From Myxococcota bacterium (GTDB lineage Bacteria; Myxococcota_A; Bradymonadia; UBA7976; UBA1532), in contig CAUJDF010000058.1 in the NCBI GenBank assembly GCA_963169045.1, positions 1 through 64,000 on the forward strand: DNA of 64,000 nt, written 5' to 3'. The translations under genes were made by a program, and so were the position numbers. Shown in pieces: positions 33,053 to 43,749 of this stretch. The notes below the pieces were generated by a model. That model worked only from the letters and a program-made list of their open reading frames with translations, was not told where the DNA came from and did no database searches. How positions within the stretch are numbered: position 1 is the stretch's first letter; every line of letters begins with the position of its first letter.

Positions 33053-34413
33053 GCGAGCAGCCCGGGCAGCACGTCCGCCGTCTCGGCGCCGCTCTTGCCG
33101 AACGACGGCAGGTCGAGGCCGATCGCCCGCAGCGCCGTGAGCTGCGCGCGGCACAGGTTGCCGTCGGGCTCGCGCACGTGCACCCCGCGCGCGAACCGAC
33201 CGCCGGCGCCGCCCGCGATCAGCACCGGCAGCTCCTTCACGCTGTGCTGCCAGCCTTCGCCGTACTCCGACGTGCCGTAGACCAGGCCGTGGTCGAGCAG
33301 GGTCGTGCCATCGGGCTCGGGCCGCGCGAACGCGTCGAGGAAGGCCGCGAACGCCTGCATGTGATAGTGCGTGATGGCACGGACGCGCTCCCAGTGGCCG
33401 TCGTGACACGTCTTGTGCATCTCTTCGGGCACGCCGACGTTCGAGAACACATGGGTGCTCGCCGGCGAGGTGAGCATCAGCGAGAACACGCGCGTGAGGC
33501 CGCAGCCCACGGCGACGCCGAGCAGCTCGCCCATGAGGCGCGCCTTGTCGACGAGGTCCTCGGGATCGCCGGGGCGGCCGGGCGCGTCGCAGCGCGGCGC
33601 GACGCTCTCCACACGCTGCTGCAGCGACCGCACGTGGGTCAGGTGGGCGTCGAGGCGGCCGCGGTCCCGCGCACCGAGACGCTGACGCAGGCGGCCGGCG
33701 TCGGCGAGCACCGCGTCGAGCACCCGCGCCCGCCGCTGCACCACGTCGGCCCCGGGCGGCACCGAGAACACGCGGTCGAACAGGGCCGACGGCGACATCA
33801 CCGGCAGGTTGGTCGAGTCCGGGCCGTTGTAGGAGATGGCGTTCCAGTGGCCGTACTCGTGGAAGCGCGCGCGGCTCACGCCGACCTCGAGCGACCGGAA
33901 GCGCACCGGACCGCGATAGAAGTCCGGATGCTTCGCCACGAGCTGGTCGAGGCTGGGATCGAGCGCCGTGAGCGTGTGCGAGGGATGGTCGAAGCCGTCC
34001 GGGCGGATGCGGTTGCCCGTGAGCGCCACCATGAAGCCGCGCATGTGCCCGTCCTCCTGGCCCGGCGGGCTCGGAGGGACCTCGGTGTGCGGCTCGAGGC
34101 CGGTGATCACCGTGGGGCGGTGGCGCGCCATCGGCTCGAGCAGCGGCGAGGGCGCGTAGCCGGCGCCCACGGCCGCGGGCGTCCACAGGTCCGGGTAGCC
34201 GCCCTGCGCCTGCGCCGCGCCGTGGCGGGCATGCCAGGGCGTGCCGTTGGCCCAGTAGAACACACCGAAGAAGGGATCGCGGCGCTCCTGGGCGTGGGCG
34301 CGGCCCTCGCCGAACATGGCTTCGAGCGCGGGCAGCGCCAGCGACACGCCGACACCGCCGAGGGTGCCGCGCAGGAAAGCGCGCCGCGACAGCGGCTTGC
34401 TGCGGATGATCAT
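33049..34413 (-). CDS. DUF1552 protein with Tat-type signal, 454 aa
   Basis: ATG 34413 lies inside the upstream stop (ATGA). The N terminus has a twin-arginine signal, SRRAFLRGTLGGVGVSLALPALEAMF, so it is probably exported folded. The body matches the DUF1552 family: FFGVFYWANGTPW, PGQEDGHMRGFMVALTG, SLDQLVAKH, LLDHGLVYGTSEYGEGWQHSVKELPVLIAGGAGG and a GNLCRAQLTAL end. The family is usually found next to DUF1592-type genes, mainly in Planctomycetes, Verrucomicrobia and Myxococcota; function is unknown, though the C-terminal region resembles DUF1501/sulfatase-like proteins. Confidence 0.9.
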   Translation of the reverse strand: MIIRSKPLSRRAFLRGTLGGVGVSLALPALEAMFGEGRAHAQERRDPFFGVFYWANGTPWHARHGAAQAQGGYPDLWTPAAVGAGYAPSPLLEPMARHRPTVITGLEPHTEVPPSPPGQEDGHMRGFMVALTGNRIRPDGFDHPSHTLTALDPSLDQLVAKHPDFYRGPVRFRSLEVGVSRARFHEYGHWNAISYNGPDSTNLPVMSPSALFDRVFSVPPGADVVQRRARVLDAVLADAGRLRQRLGARDRGRLDAHLTHVRSLQQRVESVAPRCDAPGRPGDPEDLVDKARLMGELLGVAVGCGLTRVFSLMLTSPASTHVFSNVGVPEEMHKTCHDGHWERVRAITHYHMQAFAAFLDAFARPEPDGTTLLDHGLVYGTSEYGEGWQHSVKELPVLIAGGAGGRFARGVHVREPDGNLCRAQLTALRAIGLDLPSFGKSGAETADVLPGLLA

Positions 34414-36131
34414 TGCGGGGCCTCCCCCGAGACGGGCGCCACGAGGCGGAACGCATCGCTGAGCACGAGCGCGACGAGGAGCGCCCGGAAGTCGTAGCCG
34501 GACTCGGCGAACGCCCGCTCGAGCGCCTTGAGCGCCGGCCGCTCGGCACGCGCCTCGAGGCGGCCGCTGGCATACCGGAAGAGCTGCCGGGCGATGCACT
34601 TGCCCACGCGGTCGTCGTCGGCGATCACGTCGGCGAGATCGAGGGCGTCGGTCAGCGGCAGGCCGTCGAGATCGCCGCTGCTGTCGATGGGGTGGCCCTC
34701 GGCGGTCTCGCGGTAGCGTCCCATCGAGTCGTAGTGCTCGAAGAGGAAGCCCGGCGGATCGATGAAGGCATGGCATCCGGCGCAGGTCGGGTTGCTGCGG
34801 TGCTCCTCGAGCCGCTCGCGCAACGTGGGTGGCGAGTCCGCGCGGCGTTCGAGGTTGAGGTCGACGTCGGGCGGCGGCGGAGGCACCTCCTGGCAGAGCA
34901 CGCGCTCGCGCACGAACTTGCCGCGCAGCGTCGGCGAGGTCTCGGTGCGGTGCGCGTTCATCGTCAGGAAGGCGCCGAGGGTCAGCAGGCCGGCGCGCGG
35001 CGTCTCGGGCCCGAACTCGACGGGCACGAACGCCGTCGCCGTCGCCCCCGGCGCGTCGACGCCGTAGAGCGCCGCCAGGTCGCGGTTGACGTAGGCGCGC
35101 GGCGCCGAGAAGAGCGTGCGGACGTCGCCGCCGCGGCGAAAGACCACGTCGTCGACGAGCAGGCGCACCTCGGTCTCCATCGCGCGCAGCAGGCCGGGCG
35201 AGAAGCCGGGGTACTGGGCGGGGTCGAGGTCGACGTCGCGCAGGCCGCCGAGGTCGAAGTACTGGGCGAAGAACGCCTGCACGGCCTCGCGGGCACGCGG
35301 CGTCTCGAGCAGGCGCCGGGCGTGGGCCTCGAGCGACGCGTCGTCGAGCAGCTCGCCGCGGGCGGCGGCGTCGAGCAGCGCGTCGTCGGGGGCAGCGTCG
35401 GTCAGCAGGAACGCGAGCCGCGCCGCCATCTCCCACGACGTGTAGCGGTTCGTCGCGCCGGCCGGCTCGCCCACCTCGGCGCGATACAGGAACGCCGGCG
35501 ACTGCAGCATGCCCGCGAGCACGGACTCCGCGCCGACGAGCGGATCGTCGCCCGCCGTGTCGCGCGCCACGGCCAGCCACTGCGCCACCTCGTCCTCGCC
35601 GAGCGGCCGCCGGAAGAGGCGCCGCCCGAGACCGCGGACGTAGGCGTCGAGGCAGGCCTCGTCGGCCGGCTCGCAGGTGAGGACGCGGGCGCGCCGCGCG
35701 GGATCGGCGAACACCGCCTCGGCCACGAGGAACGCGGCCTCGGCATACTGCTCGACGCCGGTCTCGGACACCTCGGTCGTCGCGGCCCCGATCGAATAGA
35801 AGAGGTACGGGTTCGTGTCCGGCTCGACCGGCGTCCGCGGCAGGTCCTCGCCGAACACATCGGTGAGCGTGTTGCGGTACTGCGTCGCGGTGAGCCGCGG
35901 CATCACCGGCTCGCCCGGCACGAACGGCGCCTCGGGGCGCGGCGGCGCGGCGTCGCCCGCCGCCTCACCGCCGTCCGGCGCGGGCGCGGGCGCCGGTGCG
36001 AACGCGCCGTCCGCGTCCGCCTCCACCTCCCGCGCCGGCGCCGTCGCGCCGACCTCGAGCCGGGCCTCGCCGCAGCCGAGCACCGCGATCGCGATCACGA
36101 CCGCCCCGCCTCGTCGTCTCAAGTCGCGCAT
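34410..36131 (-). CDS. DUF1587/1595/1592/1588/1585 secreted protein with CxxCH motif, 573 aa
   Basis: Start ATG 36131 with GGAGGAG upstream. A lipoprotein signal ends VLGC, followed by an Asp/Ala/Pro linker. The domains occur in the usual order: DUF1587 (LTATQYRNTLTDVFGEDL), DUF1595 (GLGRRLFRRPLGEDEV), DUF1592 (QSPAFLYRAEVG, MAARLAFLLTDAAPDD), DUF1588 (GLLTLGAFLTMNAH) with CAGCH (CxxCH, a possible c-type haem site), then DFIDPPGFLFEHYD-like text, and DUF1585 (CIARQLFRYASGR). These planctomycete-type proteins are exported and unassigned. The haem is likely but unproven. First gene of the operon. Confidence 0.9.
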   Translation of the reverse strand: MRDLRRRGGAVVIAIAVLGCGEARLEVGATAPAREVEADADGAFAPAPAPAPDGGEAAGDAAPPRPEAPFVPGEPVMPRLTATQYRNTLTDVFGEDLPRTPVEPDTNPYLFYSIGAATTEVSETGVEQYAEAAFLVAEAVFADPARRARVLTCEPADEACLDAYVRGLGRRLFRRPLGEDEVAQWLAVARDTAGDDPLVGAESVLAGMLQSPAFLYRAEVGEPAGATNRYTSWEMAARLAFLLTDAAPDDALLDAAARGELLDDASLEAHARRLLETPRAREAVQAFFAQYFDLGGLRDVDLDPAQYPGFSPGLLRAMETEVRLLVDDVVFRRGGDVRTLFSAPRAYVNRDLAALYGVDAPGATATAFVPVEFGPETPRAGLLTLGAFLTMNAHRTETSPTLRGKFVRERVLCQEVPPPPPDVDLNLERRADSPPTLRERLEEHRSNPTCAGCHAFIDPPGFLFEHYDSMGRYRETAEGHPIDSSGDLDGLPLTDALDLADVIADDDRVGKCIARQLFRYASGRLEARAERPALKALERAFAESGYDFRALLVALVLSDAFRLVAPVSGEAPQ

Positions 36132-36287
36132 CGCGCTCCTCCGCCGAACGGCCCATGACGATACACGATGTCGACCCGGCCGCCGAACGTCGCGCGCCCG
36201 GGCGTCTGGATTTCCCTTCCTCGCGCGTGTGAGAGACGAACCGCGCGCATACCATCCGCCCGCATCGCATCGGGCGCAGAGGCAGTG

Positions 36288-36536
36288 ATGAGGCGGTGGT
36301 GGCCGGTTCTGATGGTCGTGCCCGTCGGCTGCTTCGAGTCGGGCGGTGACGACGACGACGCGCCGCGCCCGGGCGCGGGCGCGACCGACGCGGCGGTCCG
36401 CGTCGATGGCGGCGCGGGCGGTGCAGGCGGCAGCGGCGCGGGTGGCGCCGGCGGGTCCGGCGGCAGCGGCGGCGAGGAGTGCCCCGTCGGCGTCTGGGAC
36501 GAGAGCAACTGGGACGAAGTCTGCTGGGGAGAGTGA
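36288..36536 (+). CDS. Small Gly-rich lipoprotein, 82 aa
   Basis: Start ATG 36288. A short signal (WWPVLMVVPVGC) ends in a lipobox. The mature part is an Asp cluster, a Gly/Ala/Ser repeat linker (GGAGGSGAGG) and a C terminus with two Cys and four Trp/acidic positions (ECPVGVWDESNWDEVCWGE). This resembles short secreted proteins with a compact Cys-Trp motif after a flexible tether. Three bases separate it from the next gene, so the two are coupled. Function unknown. Confidence 0.65.
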   Translation: MRRWWPVLMVVPVGCFESGGDDDDAPRPGAGATDAAVRVDGGAGGAGGSGAGGAGGSGGSGGEECPVGVWDESNWDEVCWGE

Positions 36537-36539
36537 CGG

Positions 36540-37106
36540 ATGCCAACGTCGCGGAAAATCATGCTGGCGTGCGTCTCGGCCTCGACGGTCGTGGCGGCGC
36601 TCTCGCTCGCGCAGGAGAACGGCGACGCGCCGCTGACGGAGTTCTCGCCGCAGCGCCGCATCAGCGCCGCCGAGGTGAACGGCAACTTCGCCGAGCTCGA
36701 GCGCCGCATCGCGGCGCTGCGCGAGACCGCGGCGACGCCGTTCGAGCCGCGCGTGTGCGGCGTCACGCAGCGCTCCTTCGACGGACGCGTCGAGAACGAC
36801 GCCGGTCAGGTGGGCGACCCGGCCGCCGGCATGCTGTGTCAGCAGGCGTGCGACTCCCGGACGGCACATATGTGCACGACCCACGAGGTCGCCATCTCGC
36901 GCCAGCGCGGCGTCGGCTTGCCGGAAGGCGTCGGCGCCGCACGGGTGAGCAGCGGCGCCGATGCGCACGATTGCTTCGGGTGGATCAACAACGAGCCGGC
37001 ACGCACGACGGGTCACCTGCTCGACAACGTGCTCGGCGTCGTCGAGCAGCAGAATTGCTCGGAACGCCGCCCGCTCCTCTGCTGCGACCTCGTCCCCGCC
37101 CGCTGA
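36540..37106 (+). CDS. Secreted Cys-rich protein, 188 aa
   Basis: ATG 36540, three bases after the upstream stop. Signal peptide to about residue 24. A short helix (RISAAEVNGNFAELERRIAAL) resembles the neck helix found before trimeric tail or collagen-like domains. The C-terminal ~110 residues contain eight Cys (VCGVTQRSF, CQQACDSRTAHMCTTHEV, DCFGW, NCSERRPLLCC), probably disulfide-bonded. No family recognised. Likely exported together with the small lipoprotein and possibly bound by it. Confidence 0.7.
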   Translation: MPTSRKIMLACVSASTVVAALSLAQENGDAPLTEFSPQRRISAAEVNGNFAELERRIAALRETAATPFEPRVCGVTQRSFDGRVENDAGQVGDPAAGMLCQQACDSRTAHMCTTHEVAISRQRGVGLPEGVGAARVSSGADAHDCFGWINNEPARTTGHLLDNVLGVVEQQNCSERRPLLCCDLVPAR

Positions 37107-37149
37107 CGCGACGCGCGACGCCCCACGCGCCGCCGTTCGAGGCCCGCCG

Positions 37150-37178
37150 TTGCGCCGGTGCCCGACGGGCCGTACGAT
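37150..37178 (+). promoter_or_regulatory. Predicted promoter of the Hsp70/J/uppS/cdsA/rseP/tsaB operon
   Basis: TTGCGC (37150-37155), 17 bases, TACGAT (37173-37178). It looks like a housekeeping site rather than a heat-shock sigma-32 promoter. The Hsp70 start codon is ~36 bases downstream. Confidence 0.5.
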
Positions 37179-37214
37179 GGCGCGGTTCTCGTCCGTTCCC
37201 CGAGGGACCCCCAC

Positions 37215-38801
37215 TTGACCGCGCGCGAGTACGTCATCGGCATCGATCTCGGGACGACCAACTCCTGCGCGGCGGTCGTCATCGACGGGGAGGTGCACGT
37301 CATCCCCGACGAGCGCGGGCTGCGCACGCAGGCGTCGATGGTCGCCTTCCTCGAGGACGGGTCGGTGGTGGTGGGCAACGAGGCGCGCCGCGAGGCGGTG
37401 CTCGACCCGCCCAACGTCGTCTATTCGGCGAAGCGCCTCATCGGGCGGCACTTCCACTCGAAAGAGGTGAAGACCGCGCTGCAGCACTTCCCGTTCAAGG
37501 TGGTGCGCGGCAAGAACAACGTGCCCCTGCTCGAGGTGCGCGGCGAGCGCTACGGCCTGCCCGAGATCTCGGGCATGGTGCTGCGGCGCATGAAGGACAT
37601 CGCCGAGCGCTACCTCGGCGCGCCGGTGACGAAGGCCGTCGTCACCGTCCCGGCGAACTTCAACGACACGCAGCGGCAGATGACGAAGCTCGCGGGCACG
37701 CTCGCCGGCCTCGAGGTGCTGCGCATCGTCAACGAGCCGACGGCGGCGGCGCTCGCCTACGGTTACGGGCGCGGCATGAACGCGCGCCTCGCGGTCTACG
37801 ACTTCGGCGGCGGTACGTTCGACATCACGCTGCTCGACCTGCGCGACCACGTGTTCGAGGTGCTCTCGACCGCCGGAGACACCTACCTCGGCGGCGACGA
37901 CTTCGACAACCGGCTCGCCCGCTTCATGACCGTCGCCTTCCGGCAGATGCACGGCTTCTCGATCGAGAACGATCCGGTGGCGCAGGCGCGCCTGAAGCAC
38001 GTCGCCGAGAAGCTCAAGATGGAGCTCTCCGAGAAGGAGCGCGCCATCGTCAACGTGCACGAGCTGGCGCTCGACCCCGAGGGCAAGCCGCTCGACCTGC
38101 GCTTCCAGACGGACCGCGCCGGCTTCAACGAGCGCTGCCAGGACATCATCCAGCGCACGTTCCTCGTGTGCGACGAGGCGCTGTCCGTCGCCGACATCAA
38201 GGCCGCCGAGGTGGACGGCGTGGTGCTCGTCGGCGGCACGACGCGCATCCCGCTCGTGCGGCAGATGGTCGGCGAGTACTTCCAGCAGCAGCCGCTCACC
38301 GACATCAATCCCGAAGAGGTCGTCGCCGTCGGCGCCGCCATCCAGGGGGCGGCCCTCGAGAGCGAGCATTTCGGCGTCAATGGCGGCCAGACGGCGCGCA
38401 CGCCGCTGCTCCTCGACGTGACGCCCATGTCGCTCGGCGTGCAGACCGTCAGCGGCTACTTCGACGTGGTGATCGCGCGCAACGCCTCGATCCCCTGCGA
38501 GCAGTCGCGCACGTTCACCACGACCGTCGACGGGCAGACCTCGGTGCGGCTGCAGATCTTCCAGGGCGAGAGCCGCATCGCCGCCGAGAACATCAAGCTC
38601 GGCGAGGTCGAGCTCTACGGCCTGCGGCCTTCGCCGCGCGGGCAGGTCGAGATCGACGTCACGTTCGAGATCGACACCGACGGCATGGTGATCGTGCGCG
38701 CGCGCGACCGCGACACCGGCATCGAGCAGGCGACGCGCGTCGAGGTCTCGGCGGGCTATACCCACGAAGAGATTCAGGAAATGCTGGATCGGGGGCTCTA
38801 G
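37215..38801 (+). CDS. Hsp70/DnaK-like chaperone lacking the alpha-helical lid, 528 aa
   Basis: TTG start at 37215 behind AGGG. The ATPase domain is complete: IGIDLGTTNSCAAV, NEPTAAALAYGYG, YDFGGGTFDITLLD, VDGVVLVGGTTRIPLV. The linker LLLDVTPMSLG starts near residue 399, and the substrate-binding beta-sandwich follows (NASIPCEQSRTFTTTVDGQ, VRLQIFQGE). The protein stops at SAGYTHEEIQEMLDRGL, which aligns with the first helix after the beta-domain; E. coli DnaK (638 aa) continues ~120 residues with the helical lid. So ATP binding and a peptide cleft are present, but no lid. It heads the operon and is three bases before the pseudo-receiver/J-domain gene, its probable co-chaperone. Confidence 0.9.
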   Translation: MTAREYVIGIDLGTTNSCAAVVIDGEVHVIPDERGLRTQASMVAFLEDGSVVVGNEARREAVLDPPNVVYSAKRLIGRHFHSKEVKTALQHFPFKVVRGKNNVPLLEVRGERYGLPEISGMVLRRMKDIAERYLGAPVTKAVVTVPANFNDTQRQMTKLAGTLAGLEVLRIVNEPTAAALAYGYGRGMNARLAVYDFGGGTFDITLLDLRDHVFEVLSTAGDTYLGGDDFDNRLARFMTVAFRQMHGFSIENDPVAQARLKHVAEKLKMELSEKERAIVNVHELALDPEGKPLDLRFQTDRAGFNERCQDIIQRTFLVCDEALSVADIKAAEVDGVVLVGGTTRIPLVRQMVGEYFQQQPLTDINPEEVVAVGAAIQGAALESEHFGVNGGQTARTPLLLDVTPMSLGVQTVSGYFDVVIARNASIPCEQSRTFTTTVDGQTSVRLQIFQGESRIAAENIKLGEVELYGLRPSPRGQVEIDVTFEIDTDGMVIVRARDRDTGIEQATRVEVSAGYTHEEIQEMLDRGL

Positions 38802-38804
38802 CCG

Positions 38805-39839
38805 ATGGAGCCGAAGCAGCCGACGCGTCCCGTCCCGGCCCTCGGCAGGCTCGCGCTCAAGCGCGTGGCCGTCGCGGCGCCCCAGGCGGCGCAGCCGGCG
38901 GTCGTCGTGCGCCGGGCGCTCGTCGGCGAGGGCGACGAGGGGGTGCGCAACGCGGTGATCGCGCACCTGCCGCGCGAGCGGTTCCAGGTGTGGGCCTACC
39001 CCGACGGCGACTCGGCGTACGACCACGTGCAGGCCCACGGCGCCGACGTCGTGATCCTCGGCCGCGAGATGCCGGGCCTCGCCGGGAGCGTGCTCTGCGA
39101 GCTCATCCGCAAGGGCAAGTTCGGCGGCACGGTGGCCATCCTGCTGATGAGCCCGCGTTACCGTGACCACCACCTCGGCGCCCGCGACTGCAGCGCGTTC
39201 GGCGCCGACGAGTTCATCCCGCTGCCGACGTCGCCGAACGACTTCCTCGACCGCGTCGATGCCGCCATCTCGCGACGCGAGCCGATCGCCCGGCTCGAGG
39301 TGCTGCCGGCGCCGCTCGCCAGGCAGATCGACGACCTGTGGGACGCGCTCGACCGCCTCAGCTACTACGAGCTGCTCGGCGTGGCGCCCGACGCGGACCG
39401 CAACGCCCTGCAGGCGGCCTTCCACGAGAAGTCGCTGCGGCTGCACCCCGACCGCCACGCGAAGCTGCGCGGCGCGCACCCGCACGCGTGGGAGAAGATC
39501 AACACCATCTTCAAGCGCGTCACCGAGGCCTACAAGGCGCTGGCCCATCCGGCGAACCGGCGCAGCTACAACGTCGGCCTGCGCAAGCGCGGCGCGCTGC
39601 GGCTCGAGCCCGACGAGGTGCGGCGCCGCGAGATGCGCGAGCTCGAGCTCGCCACGACGAACGAGGGCCGACAGTTCGTGCTGCAGATGATGGAGTGCCG
39701 CAGCATCGGCGACCTCGAGGGCGCCGGCGAGGCGCTCGGGCAGGCGCTCCGCTTCGAGCCCGAGAACCAGCCGCTGCGCGACATGCGCGACGCCATCGAG
39801 AAGCTGCTGCACATCGTCCGCACCCAGTCGGTTCCCTGA
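38805..39839 (+). CDS. Pseudo-receiver plus J-domain fusion protein, 344 aa
   Basis: Residues ~35-155 form a CheY-like fold, but the phosphate site is degraded: the acceptor Asp is Gly 86 (VVILGREMPG), the conserved Lys is Leu 140 (FIPLPTSP), and the paired acids are partly replaced (ALVGEGDEG). The Ser of the Thr/Ser site is kept (LLMSP). Residues ~184-255 form a J-domain (YYELLGVAPDAD...LHPDRH, H214-P215-D216) that should stimulate Hsp70 ATPase. The last ~75 residues are a helical, TPR-like tail. It is cytoplasmic. The upstream gene is its likely Hsp70 partner. Whether the pseudo-receiver binds a different signal is unknown. Confidence 0.85.
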   Translation: MEPKQPTRPVPALGRLALKRVAVAAPQAAQPAVVVRRALVGEGDEGVRNAVIAHLPRERFQVWAYPDGDSAYDHVQAHGADVVILGREMPGLAGSVLCELIRKGKFGGTVAILLMSPRYRDHHLGARDCSAFGADEFIPLPTSPNDFLDRVDAAISRREPIARLEVLPAPLARQIDDLWDALDRLSYYELLGVAPDADRNALQAAFHEKSLRLHPDRHAKLRGAHPHAWEKINTIFKRVTEAYKALAHPANRRSYNVGLRKRGALRLEPDEVRRREMRELELATTNEGRQFVLQMMECRSIGDLEGAGEALGQALRFEPENQPLRDMRDAIEKLLHIVRTQSVP

Positions 39840-39842
39840 GAG

Positions 39843-40580
39843 ATGAACCTGCCGAGACACATCGCGATCATCATGGACGGCAACGGCCGCTGGGCCTGCA
39901 ACCAGGGCCTGCCGCGCGTCGAGGGCCACCGCGCCGGCGCCAAGGCGGTGCATCGCACGGTGCGCGCCTGCCGCGAGATCGGCATCGAGGCGCTCACCCT
40001 CTATGCCTTCAGCGAGCAGAACTGGGCGCGCCCCGAGCCCGAGGTGGAGGCGCTCATGCACCTGCTCCTCGAGTACGTGCGCACCGAGCGCCAGGAGATC
40101 CTCGGCAACGACATCCGCCTGACGGCCATCGGCGACCTCGAGCGGCTGCCGCCGTTCGTGCGCGAGCCGCTGTTCGCGCTGATGGAGGAGAGCGCCAGCA
40201 ACCAGGGCATGGTGCTGACGCTGGCGCTGAGCTACGGCGGGCGCGAGGAGATCCTGCGCGCCGCCAGAGCGCTCGCGCGGGAGGCCGCCGCCGGCCGCCT
40301 CGACCCCGCCGACATCGACGAGGCGGCGTTCGCCGCCGGGCTCGACACCGCGGGGCTGCCCGATCCGGACCTGCTCATCCGCACGAGCGGCGAGCTGCGC
40401 GTGAGCAACTTCCTGCTCTGGCAGATCGCCTACGCCGAGCTCTGGTTCACCGAGGACACCTGGCCCGAATTCGACCGCGCCCACCTCGACCTCGCGATCG
40501 AGTGCTATCGGCAGCGGCAGCGGCGGTTCGGGCGCACCGGCGAGCAGGTGCTCGCCGCCGTGGGGGCGACGGGGTGCTGA
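39843..40580 (+). CDS. uppS: Isoprenyl transferase (undecaprenyl diphosphate synthase), 245 aa
   Basis: cis-Prenyltransferase that adds isopentenyl units to make the C55 lipid carrier for peptidoglycan and O-antigen. Motifs: IAIIMDGNGRWA (Mg Asp 12), GHRAGAKAV, LYAFSEQNWARP, ALSYGGREEI, DLLIRTSGELRVSNFLLWQ and the C-terminal LWFTEDTWPEF. Length is typical. It lies three bases after the pseudo-receiver/J-domain stop and overlaps the cdsA start by seven bases. Confidence 0.96.
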   Translation: MNLPRHIAIIMDGNGRWACNQGLPRVEGHRAGAKAVHRTVRACREIGIEALTLYAFSEQNWARPEPEVEALMHLLLEYVRTERQEILGNDIRLTAIGDLERLPPFVREPLFALMEESASNQGMVLTLALSYGGREEILRAARALAREAAAGRLDPADIDEAAFAAGLDTAGLPDPDLLIRTSGELRVSNFLLWQIAYAELWFTEDTWPEFDRAHLDLAIECYRQRQRRFGRTGEQVLAAVGATGC

Positions 40581-41386
40581 CGCGCATCATCTCCGGCATC
40601 GTGATGGCCGCGGCCATCATCGCCGTGCTCATCTACACGCCGTGGTGGACGCTGGGCCTCGTGGTCCTCGTCTTCGCCTTCCTGTCGGCCCACGAGTTCC
40701 AGCGCATCACGCGCCCCGACGCCGGCGGCGTCGACCGCGGCGTGTTCATGCTCGCCGTGCTCGTCGCCATCGTCTGGCCGGTCCTGCGCAAGGTGCTGCC
40801 GTTCTGGGGACCCGAGGTCGGCCTGATGGTCGGCTTCTTCATCCTGGCGCTGGCGCGACTGTTCCGCCCCGACCCCATCGAGACCAGCATCGCCCGCCTG
40901 GGGACCGACGCGCTCGGCCTGATGTACATCGGCGTGACCTTCCCGCTGATCTTTCTTCTGCGCGACCGGGAGCACGGCGGCTGGGTCGTCTTGTTGGTGA
41001 TGGCGATCACCTTCGGGGCCGATACCGGGGCGTACTTCGCCGGGCGGTTCCTGGGGCGGCACAAGATGTACGAGAAGATCAGCCCCAAGAAGACGTGGGA
41101 GGGCCTCGTCGGCGGCCTCCTCGTCGGCGTGGGCGCGGTCTTCATCGCACGTCAGTGGTTCCCCGGGCTCGGCTGGCTCACCCCGGCGCACTGCGTGGCG
41201 CTCGGCCTCCTCGCCGCCTCGTTCGGGGCGATGGGCGACCTCGTGGAGTCGATGCTGAAGCGCGCATACGGCGTGAAGGACTCCGGTACGCTCATCCCCG
41301 GCCACGGCGGCGCCCTCGACCGCATCGACGCGCTGCTCTTCGCAGGGCCCGTCGCCTGGCTGTACCTGGAGTGGGCCACCCGATGA
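40574..41386 (+). CDS. cdsA: Phosphatidate cytidylyltransferase CdsA, 270 aa
   Basis: Makes CDP-diacylglycerol from phosphatidate and CTP, feeding pssA and cardiolipin synthesis. GTG start at 40574 overlaps uppS. About eight hydrophobic helices. The family signature is complete near the C terminus: SMLKRAYGVKDSGTLIPGHGG followed by LDRIDALLF. The stop overlaps the rseP start (ATGA). uppS-cdsA-rseP order is widely conserved in bacteria. Confidence 0.95.
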   Translation: MLTRIISGIVMAAAIIAVLIYTPWWTLGLVVLVFAFLSAHEFQRITRPDAGGVDRGVFMLAVLVAIVWPVLRKVLPFWGPEVGLMVGFFILALARLFRPDPIETSIARLGTDALGLMYIGVTFPLIFLLRDREHGGWVVLLVMAITFGADTGAYFAGRFLGRHKMYEKISPKKTWEGLVGGLLVGVGAVFIARQWFPGLGWLTPAHCVALGLLAASFGAMGDLVESMLKRAYGVKDSGTLIPGHGGALDRIDALLFAGPVAWLYLEWATR

Positions 41387-43062
41387 ACGCCCTTCTCAAC
41401 ATCGCCGCCTTCGTCGTGCTCCTCGGCGTGCTCGTCACGGTGCACGAGCTCGGCCACTTCGTCGTGGCCAAGCTGAGCAAGGTGAAGGTGCACGTGTTCT
41501 CGATCGGCTTCGGCAAGCCGCTCCTGAAGACGCGCATCGGCGAGACCGAGTACCGCATCGCGATGCTGCCGCTCGGCGGTTACGTGCGCATGGCCGGCGC
41601 CGATCCGACCGAATCGGCGGACCCCGCCGAGATGCGCGGCAGCTTCCTGCAGAAGCCGCCGTGGGTCCGCATCCTCATCGCGATGGCGGGCCCGGCGATG
41701 AACCTGCTGCTGCCGTTCGCGATCCTGGTGCCGTACTTCGTGATGGCCGGCAGCCACGACGAGGTGACCGGCAACTCGATCGGCGCCGTCGACAGCGGCC
41801 TGCCCGCCTACAAAGCCGGCCTGCGCCCCGGCGACCGCATCGTCGCCGTCGACGGCGCGCCGGTCTCGACGTTCTGGGAGATCAGCGAGCGCATCGAGTC
41901 GTACCGCCAGAGCCAGGGGCCGCTGAAGCTCACCGTCGAGCGGCCGGGCGAGGCGGCGCCCCTGACGATCGAGGTCCAGCCGGAGGGCGTCGAGCAGACG
42001 CACCCCATCCTCGGCTACAAGTCGACGGACTACCGTGTCGGGTACATGCCCGACGCGCGCGCCGCCGACGTGGCGCTGGTCGCGCCCGACGCGCCGCTCG
42101 GCGCCGCCGGCGTGAAGACCTTCGACCGCGTGCTGGCGATCGACGGCGAGGCGGTGGCGGGCTACGACGCGCTCGAGCGCGCGCTCGCCGCGCTGCCCGC
42201 CGGCAAGACGGTCACGCTGAAGGTGGAGCGGGACACGCCCATCCCCGACACGTACACCTTCCTGCAGAAGCGCGAGACGCTCGAGCTGCCGTTCACCGCG
42301 CCCGCCACTGGCGCGGCCGCGGGCCTGACGCACGCCGGTCCCTGCATCGCCTCGCTGGCGGCCGACGGGCCGGCGGCGAAGGCCGGCCTGCAGCTCGGCG
42401 ACTGCATCCTCGCCGTCGACGGCGAGCCGCACTCGCTCGCCGCGTTCGTGGCCCAGCGGATCGCCAACGCCCCGGAGGTGCCCAAGTCCCTCGAGGTGCT
42501 GCGGGACGGGCAAAAGCTCACCGTCTCGCTGCAGCTCGAGCGCATCGTGTTCGACGACGCGCTCGCCGGCGAGATCCAGCAGTGGCGCACCGGCCTGAAG
42601 CTGCTCAACCGCCCGGATCCGTTCGTGCCGCAGCCGCTCGTGGCCAACGACAACCGCATGGCCTACGCCTGGACGCGCACCGTCGACCACGTCGGCGACA
42701 AGCTGCAGGAGCTCGTCTACATGGTCGGCGGCCTGTTCACCGGCCGCGTCAGCCCGACGCAGCTCGGCGGTCCGCTCACCATCTACACGCTCGCCGGCAT
42801 GCAGGTGCAGCAGGGCGCCGACAGCTTCATCGCGCTGATGGTGATGCTGTCGCTGTCGCTCGCCATCCTGAACCTGCTGCCCGTGCCCGGCCTCGACGGC
42901 GGCCAGGTGCTCGTCGCCGCCATCGAGATGGTCATCCGCCGGCCGCTGCCCGAGAAGGTGCAGGCGGGCCTCTTCCGCATCGGCGCGGTCATGATCCTCG
43001 CCCTCATCCTGTTCGCCCTCGGCAACGACCTCGTGCGCCAGTGGCGGCTCCACTACGGCTGA
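41383..43062 (+). CDS. rseP: RseP-type site-2 protease with three PDZ-like modules, 559 aa
   Basis: Intramembrane zinc metalloprotease; cleaves membrane-bound anti-sigma factors after a site-1 protease cut. ATG start at 41383, overlapping cdsA. The zinc motif is H21-E-L-G-H25 in the first helix, and the third ligand is Asp 505 in NLLPVPGLDGGQ. Between are three PDZ-like modules, at ~130-205 (GLRPGDRIVAVDGAPV), ~228-305 (FDRVLAIDGEAV; the glycine after FD is missing) and ~320-395 (GLQLGDCILAVDGEPHS). E. coli RseP (450 aa) has two. Two C-terminal helices follow the Asp motif. Confidence 0.93.
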   Translation: MNALLNIAAFVVLLGVLVTVHELGHFVVAKLSKVKVHVFSIGFGKPLLKTRIGETEYRIAMLPLGGYVRMAGADPTESADPAEMRGSFLQKPPWVRILIAMAGPAMNLLLPFAILVPYFVMAGSHDEVTGNSIGAVDSGLPAYKAGLRPGDRIVAVDGAPVSTFWEISERIESYRQSQGPLKLTVERPGEAAPLTIEVQPEGVEQTHPILGYKSTDYRVGYMPDARAADVALVAPDAPLGAAGVKTFDRVLAIDGEAVAGYDALERALAALPAGKTVTLKVERDTPIPDTYTFLQKRETLELPFTAPATGAAAGLTHAGPCIASLAADGPAAKAGLQLGDCILAVDGEPHSLAAFVAQRIANAPEVPKSLEVLRDGQKLTVSLQLERIVFDDALAGEIQQWRTGLKLLNRPDPFVPQPLVANDNRMAYAWTRTVDHVGDKLQELVYMVGGLFTGRVSPTQLGGPLTIYTLAGMQVQQGADSFIALMVMLSLSLAILNLLPVPGLDGGQVLVAAIEMVIRRPLPEKVQAGLFRIGAVMILALILFALGNDLVRQWRLHYG

Positions 43063-43068
43063 ACCTCC

Positions 43069-43749
43069 GTGCTCCCGGCGCCCCTGCTCCTCGCGATCGA
43101 TTGCGCCACCCCCTACGAGTCGGTGGCGCTGGTGCGCGACGGCGACGTCGTGGCCGAGCATGGCGCGGTGCGGCGCCACGGCGCCGGGCCGACGCTGCTC
43201 GACGTGGTGCAGGCGCTGCTCGAGGACGCCGGCGTCGGGCTGTCCGACGTGCGCGGGCTGGTGTGCGGGCTCGGGCCGGGCAGCTTCACCGGGCTGCGCG
43301 TGGCGCTCGCGACGCTCAAGGGGCTGGCGCTCGCGCGCGACCTGCCGCTGTGGGGCGTGCCCACCGCGGTGGCGCTCCAGGCGGCGCTGCCGCACGAGCG
43401 GGTGGTGGCCGTGATCGACGCGAAGCGCGGCGAGGTGTTCGTCGAGGGCCGGTGCGTGCCGCCCTCGGCGGTCGGTGACCTCGGCGAGGCGACGCTGCTC
43501 GGGAGCGGGGCGCTGCTGTACCGCGCGACGCTGCTCGCCGGATCGCCGCGGGCGCGTGTCCCCGAGGCGCCGGCCCTGCACCACCCGCGGGCAGCGCTGT
43601 TGACGACCCGCCTGGGCGACCCCCCGCCACTGGCGACCCTCGAGCCGATCTACGTCCGCAAGTCCGACGCCGAGATCAACTACCCCGACGGCTTCCCGGA
43701 CGCGACCGCCGTGCCCGCCCAGAAGCTTCCGCCGAAACACCGACGCTGA
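43069..43749 (+). CDS. tsaB: tRNA t6A biosynthesis protein TsaB, 226 aa
   Basis: ASKHA-fold partner of TsaD, TsaE and TsaC for N6-threonylcarbamoyl-adenosine at position 37 of ANN-decoding tRNAs. GTG start at 43069, six bases after the rseP stop. Signature: LLAIDCATPYESVAL at the N terminus, and LVCGLGPGSFTGLRVALATLKGLALA around residue 65. It shows the usual short C-terminal domain and length. Last gene of the operon. The downstream 358 bp has a repeated CCGGCGCAGGCA (43751 and 43808). Confidence 0.92.
   Translation: MLPAPLLLAIDCATPYESVALVRDGDVVAEHGAVRRHGAGPTLLDVVQALLEDAGVGLSDVRGLVCGLGPGSFTGLRVALATLKGLALARDLPLWGVPTAVALQAALPHERVVAVIDAKRGEVFVEGRCVPPSAVGDLGEATLLGSGALLYRATLLAGSPRARVPEAPALHHPRAALLTTRLGDPPPLATLEPIYVRKSDAEINYPDGFPDATAVPAQKLPPKHRR

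Follow-up and report, generated by a model that had tools for sequence, protein, structure and literature searches.

The stretch of DNA analysed here (the window; 64,000 nucleotides from a Myxococcota bacterium) contains, at 38805..39839, an intact open reading frame from ATG to stop encoding a protein of 344 amino acids. Unless stated otherwise, all features described below lie on the + strand. The N-terminal part of the protein comprises a receiver domain (residues 36-159; 38910..39281), matched by the Pfam Response_reg family over residues 42-151 (E=1.2e-8; 35.6 bits versus a cut-off of 30.2), and this is followed by a J-domain (residues 186-256; 39360..39572) matched over that range by the Pfam DnaJ family (E=1.5e-12; 47.9 versus a cut-off of 27.8). 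The HMM search thus places both domains above their cut-offs on one protein, as an earlier note on this DNA had proposed from the sequence, and a chance match or wrong frame is ruled out by the Pfam and profile matches. The HPD motif of the J-domain (residues 214-216; 39444..39452), which the same note had read as intact, is so according to both Pfam and the alignment, and is conserved in all 37 of 37 tabulated homologs. No Pfam match to a DnaJ_C or zinc-finger domain was found in the protein, which, with an intact HPD and neither of these client domains, has the composition of a class C J-protein. The receiver is preceded by a conserved motif (residues 10-24; 38832..38876) identified by alignment of family members, most of which keep a PxLGRxALKRVAV-like sequence, the first proline being variable. 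Its hydrophobic core is flanked by basic residues and presumably resembles a typical Hsp70-binding peptide. The J-domain is followed by a C-terminal tail (39579..39836) that is conserved in the alignment and gives weak TPR matches in homologs; the tail of the window protein itself has no Pfam match, to TPR or to any other family. A minus-strand open reading frame that overlaps these genes (34410-40484; 2024 amino acids) is largely a high-GC artefact.

Immediately upstream is a gene encoding an Hsp70 of 547 amino acids (37158..38801; the exact start codon is uncertain), with three bases between its end at 38801 and the J-protein ATG at 38805. The Pfam HSP70 match (E=7e-171) covers profile positions 1-511 of 599, corresponding to a complete NBD, linker and SBD-beta, and the C-terminus falls just after SBD-beta, where the lid would begin. 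With no alpha-helical lid and scores below both DnaK equivalog cut-offs (TIGR02350, 581 versus 823 bits; NF001413, 604 versus 648), this Hsp70 is not a canonical DnaK. Downstream are uppS, encoding undecaprenyl diphosphate synthase (39843..40580; Pfam 4.1e-80), and genes for a cdsA-type cytidylyltransferase (40574..41386; Pfam 2.2e-60), an rseP-type M50 protease with PDZ domains (41383..43062; Pfam 2.1e-64) and a tsaB-type protein of the TsaD superfamily (43069..43749; Pfam TsaD 3.4e-16).

Alignment of the receiver to PhoB and RegX3 places Gly86 (codon 39060..39062) at the position of the phospho-acceptor Asp, Leu140 at that of the Lys and Met115 at that of the Thr/Ser; of the acidic pair, E42 is retained and the second acidic residue is replaced by G43. 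The Gly and Leu replacements and the disrupted acidic pair had been claimed beforehand and are borne out. Four of the five catalytic residues (G43, G86, M115 and L140) are lost and E42 remains, so that the domain does not have the response-regulator catalytic set of acidic pair, Asp, Thr/Ser and Lys. It has instead the character of a pseudo-receiver or ALR, that is, a PF00072 fold without the acceptor Asp and other key catalytic residues, and is predicted to be a receiver without normal phosphotransfer chemistry, in support of the earlier view that it cannot be phosphorylated in the usual manner. The fold itself is recognisable, as had also been claimed. A profile of 15 homologous receivers matched true receivers in the PDB (best match 1mvo, 1.5e-12) and, when compared by hhalign with a profile built from seven receivers that have the full catalytic set, gave a probability of 98.4 and an E value of 6e-15. 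On the basis of these profile comparisons and the Pfam match we firmly assign residues 42-151 to a receiver. Structure prediction, which the earlier note had recommended, was of mixed value: the single-sequence AF2 model of the receiver alone was of low confidence (pLDDT 55.7), yet almost all structures placed near it by Foldseek were receivers. The corresponding model of the whole protein (pLDDT 44.6) was poor and was set aside.

Orthologs of the receiver-J protein were found by genome search in 11 of the 13 genomes of the family to which the window belongs (f1), and a profile search extended the distribution across the order and class to families f2, f3 and f7 and to single genomes of f59 and f13. 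In one scan of a sequence collection with the receiver-J protein, the sole match, in a contig from Rhodobacteraceae, was to the J-domain. Thirty-eight receivers from these six families were tabulated and none (0 of 38) has the complete catalytic set. The acceptor position is occupied by Gly, Ser, His, Tyr, Cys, Trp and sometimes Asp. Gly86 is conserved in 9 of the 11 f1 members, the others having Ser (1) and Asp (1; G264), and the position is Gly in f59, His (3) or Trp (1) in f7, and His (15), Tyr (2) or Cys (1) in f3, where an ACGD motif is conserved at the former active site together with the predominant His. In the three order-level homologs of f2, an Asp lies at the site or one residue past it, the alignment being ambiguous, the acidic pair is His-Pro and the Lys is Tyr. 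The f13 protein (L118) has an acceptor Asp and has lost both the acidic pair and the Lys. The Lys is left in one sequence only (G150), which has Gly at its acceptor position. According to the earlier note, homologs with a normal Asp at this site would point to recent decay in this strain only. Such homologs literally exist (G264, L118 and the three from f2), but they are pseudo-receivers too because the acidic pair and Lys are missing, and therefore recent decay is not implied.

The same conclusion follows from selection. In three within-genus pairs, simple Nei-Gojobori estimates of dN/dS were 0.08, 0.36 and 0.19 for the receiver and 0.15, 0.29 and 0.30 for the J-domain (range 0.15-0.30), and mean within-family identity is 0.56 and 0.55, respectively. 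The receiver is under purifying selection comparable to that on the J-domain. Recent decay in one strain is ruled out by these values together with the 38 homologs from six families that are without the catalytic set; the catalytic loss is old and the pseudo-receiver domain has been maintained. The loss of catalytic residues and the divergence of the domain between families are what a functionless, passively drifting relic fused to the J-domain by chance would also display, but such an origin is made very improbable by the purifying selection, by retention across six families and by the presence in f1 of invariant non-catalytic receiver residues. The loops of the former active site are not significantly enriched in conserved positions (19 of 124 circular shifts give at least the observed concentration). 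On this test a ligand pocket at that site was rejected as a candidate, and the result speaks mildly against a simple pocket of this type.

The hsp70 gene lies immediately upstream of the receiver-J gene in all f1 and f2 homologs and also in f7. The order in f1 and f2 is hsp70, receiver-J and uppS, then cdsA, rseP and tsaB where contigs reach; in G264 and G150, no uppS was detected in the interval that separates receiver-J from cdsA. Family f7 has hsp70 and receiver-J without the uppS-cdsA-rseP-tsaB cluster. In f3, receiver-J is followed by cdsA, rseP and tsaB with no adjoining Hsp70, and its partner in that family must therefore be an Hsp70 encoded elsewhere. In G222 and G077, the two f1 genomes that gave no receiver-J match, the uppS-cdsA-rseP-tsaB cluster is intact, and neither hsp70 nor receiver-J stands at its head. 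At the single f13 locus (L118 1787-4149; genome G254) the Hsp70 gene (544 amino acids) is overlapped by the receiver-J gene, which has no tail. The receiver-J-linked Hsp70s of f1, f2 and f7, none of which has a lid, form a supported clade (98/95) with one Hsp70 from f37, and the J-protein beside the latter has no receiver.

Most of the phylum has the J-domain and the same C-terminal tail without a receiver, in proteins of about 165-190 amino acids, and at the loci examined the Hsp70 beside them is likewise without a canonical lid. The Hsp70s paired with J-tail proteins at five loci of other families (L092, L093, L094, L101 and L106) reach an exceptional length of ∼760-1020 amino acids from the NBD start and, where scanned, match Pfam HSP70 in two stretches, which suggests insertions. 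In the J-domain tree the receiver-J groups f1+f2 and f3+f7 are each supported (100/99). The receiver label changes four to five times on this tree, with at least two changes forced by starred branches, and therefore repeated fusion or loss of the receiver is likely. One of the counted changes stems from a J-only f3 sequence (L102) that is cut by the contig end, and it was rejected as a real receiver loss.

A paralog in the same genome (L002 1030-2022, contig C44) has the architecture PilZ-J-tail, with PilZ (Pfam PilZ 1.1e-6) replacing the receiver. A second-messenger module can therefore occupy the same place, as would suit a receiver that is a switch by another route, with a small ligand, a redox change, or a receiver or histidine kinase partner acting without phosphotransfer to toggle the J-domain. 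The PilZ proteins of Myxococcus xanthus with DnaK or DnaJ domains (PMC8316039), the PilZ-DnaK chaperones CsdK1/2 (PMC10313047) and the ACGD motif with its His in f3 also fit such a switch, but f1 has no conserved ligand-like site, its active-site loops show no significant conservation, and the former active-site residues vary by lineage (G, H, D). We regard a switch as rather unlikely.

Elsewhere in the same genome (G000; L108 2458-4557) the gene after a second lidless Hsp70 encodes a stand-alone, catalytically complete receiver, and the same arrangement of the two genes recurs in another genome (L112; G037). In three f3 genomes (L113 885-4796, L114 and L115) an unlinked lidless Hsp70 lies directly downstream of a protein of 555-737 amino acids whose N-terminus is receiver-like and which also contains TPRs and a J-domain with the HPD motif, the J and receiver matches being below Pfam cut-offs. 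This Hsp70 is placed among lidded DnaKs in the tree, and here the combination seems to have been put together separately. We tentatively raise the possibility that the lidless Hsp70s of this phylum are a distinct, signalling-type class of chaperone that owes its client selectivity to an input module (pseudo-receiver or PilZ) carried by the J-protein instead of to a lid, and that this arrangement may have been assembled more than once (the window locus, the f3 receiver-J-TPR protein and possibly f59 and f13). The earlier note had overlooked the lidless Hsp70 next to the gene, the conservation of gene order, the replacement of the receiver by PilZ in the paralog and the repeated pairing of lidless Hsp70s with receivers.

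We propose, as the probable function, that the protein encoded at 38805..39839 is a class C J-protein dedicated to the upstream lidless Hsp70, whose dead receiver positions that Hsp70 on a specific client. Since the HPD is intact and the two genes are paired, the J-domain would stimulate ATP hydrolysis by the neighbouring Hsp70. The pseudo-receiver, kept by selection, would act as a static module for binding or docking and hold the J-domain, and hence the Hsp70, beside one client or one cellular site. The Hsp70 lid slows substrate release (PMC8215388), and therefore fast exchange is expected of a lidless Hsp70; with peptide release presumably this rapid, the J-protein, and not the Hsp70 peptide clamp, would set specificity and dwell time. 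From the conserved location ahead of uppS-cdsA-rseP-tsaB, our guess for a candidate client is an envelope or carrier-lipid enzyme. Such a J-protein might act with the lidded DnaKs of the cell as well. The receiver might instead be mainly a dimerisation scaffold that yields a co-chaperone with two J-domains, as fifteen of the pseudo-receiver structures available are dimeric without phosphorylation (PMC12632262), but this leaves the exchange with PilZ unexplained and we consider it improbable. That a lidless Hsp70 obtains its selectivity from a dedicated J-protein is a testable idea on Hsp70. Pseudo-receivers are common, but in a 2025 review the activation mechanisms of bacterial ones were called a mystery (PMC12632262); here a pseudo-receiver would be tied to a defined output, stimulation of the Hsp70 ATPase by the J-domain, and the adjacent gene encodes the likely partner, so that the question of activation becomes directly testable.

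No description of the receiver-J protein, or of its pairing with a lidless Hsp70, was found in the open-access literature, within which the earlier remark that this domain order has no named family holds. Aspartate-less or pseudo-receivers (Maule 2015, PMC4395418; Bourret 2025, PMC12632262), for example FrzS of M. xanthus, likewise have the PF00072 fold with catalytic residues missing and no phosphotransfer expected. The output here, however, is a J-domain, and the terms 'DnaJ' and 'J-domain' are absent from the main text of both articles. Class C J-domain proteins (PMC8215388), such as HscB with HscA, also share only the J-domain with DnaJ and pair a dedicated J-protein with a specialised Hsp70, but the present protein differs in its N-terminal pseudo-receiver, its phylum-shared C-terminal tail and its lidless partner. 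A regulatory DnaK homolog of 540 amino acids that is not heat-induced, StkA of M. xanthus (PMC4319316), is similar in length to the 547-residue Hsp70; its neighbours are StkB (SCP2-like) and StkC rather than a J-protein and uppS. CsdK1 and CsdK2 (PilZ-DnaK) and the PilZ-DnaJ proteins of M. xanthus join a signalling domain to chaperone machinery, like the PilZ-J paralog, but their domain is PilZ and not a receiver, and in the parts of the two reports considered here (PMC10313047, PMC8316039) a lidless Hsp70 is nowhere described as paired with a J-protein that has a pseudo-receiver. The ClpXP adaptor RssB (PMC7226468) is comparable in that it contains a receiver and brings a client to a machine powered by ATP, and in that turnover does not depend strictly on phosphorylation, although RssB retains Asp58, is tuned by phosphorylation and serves a protease.
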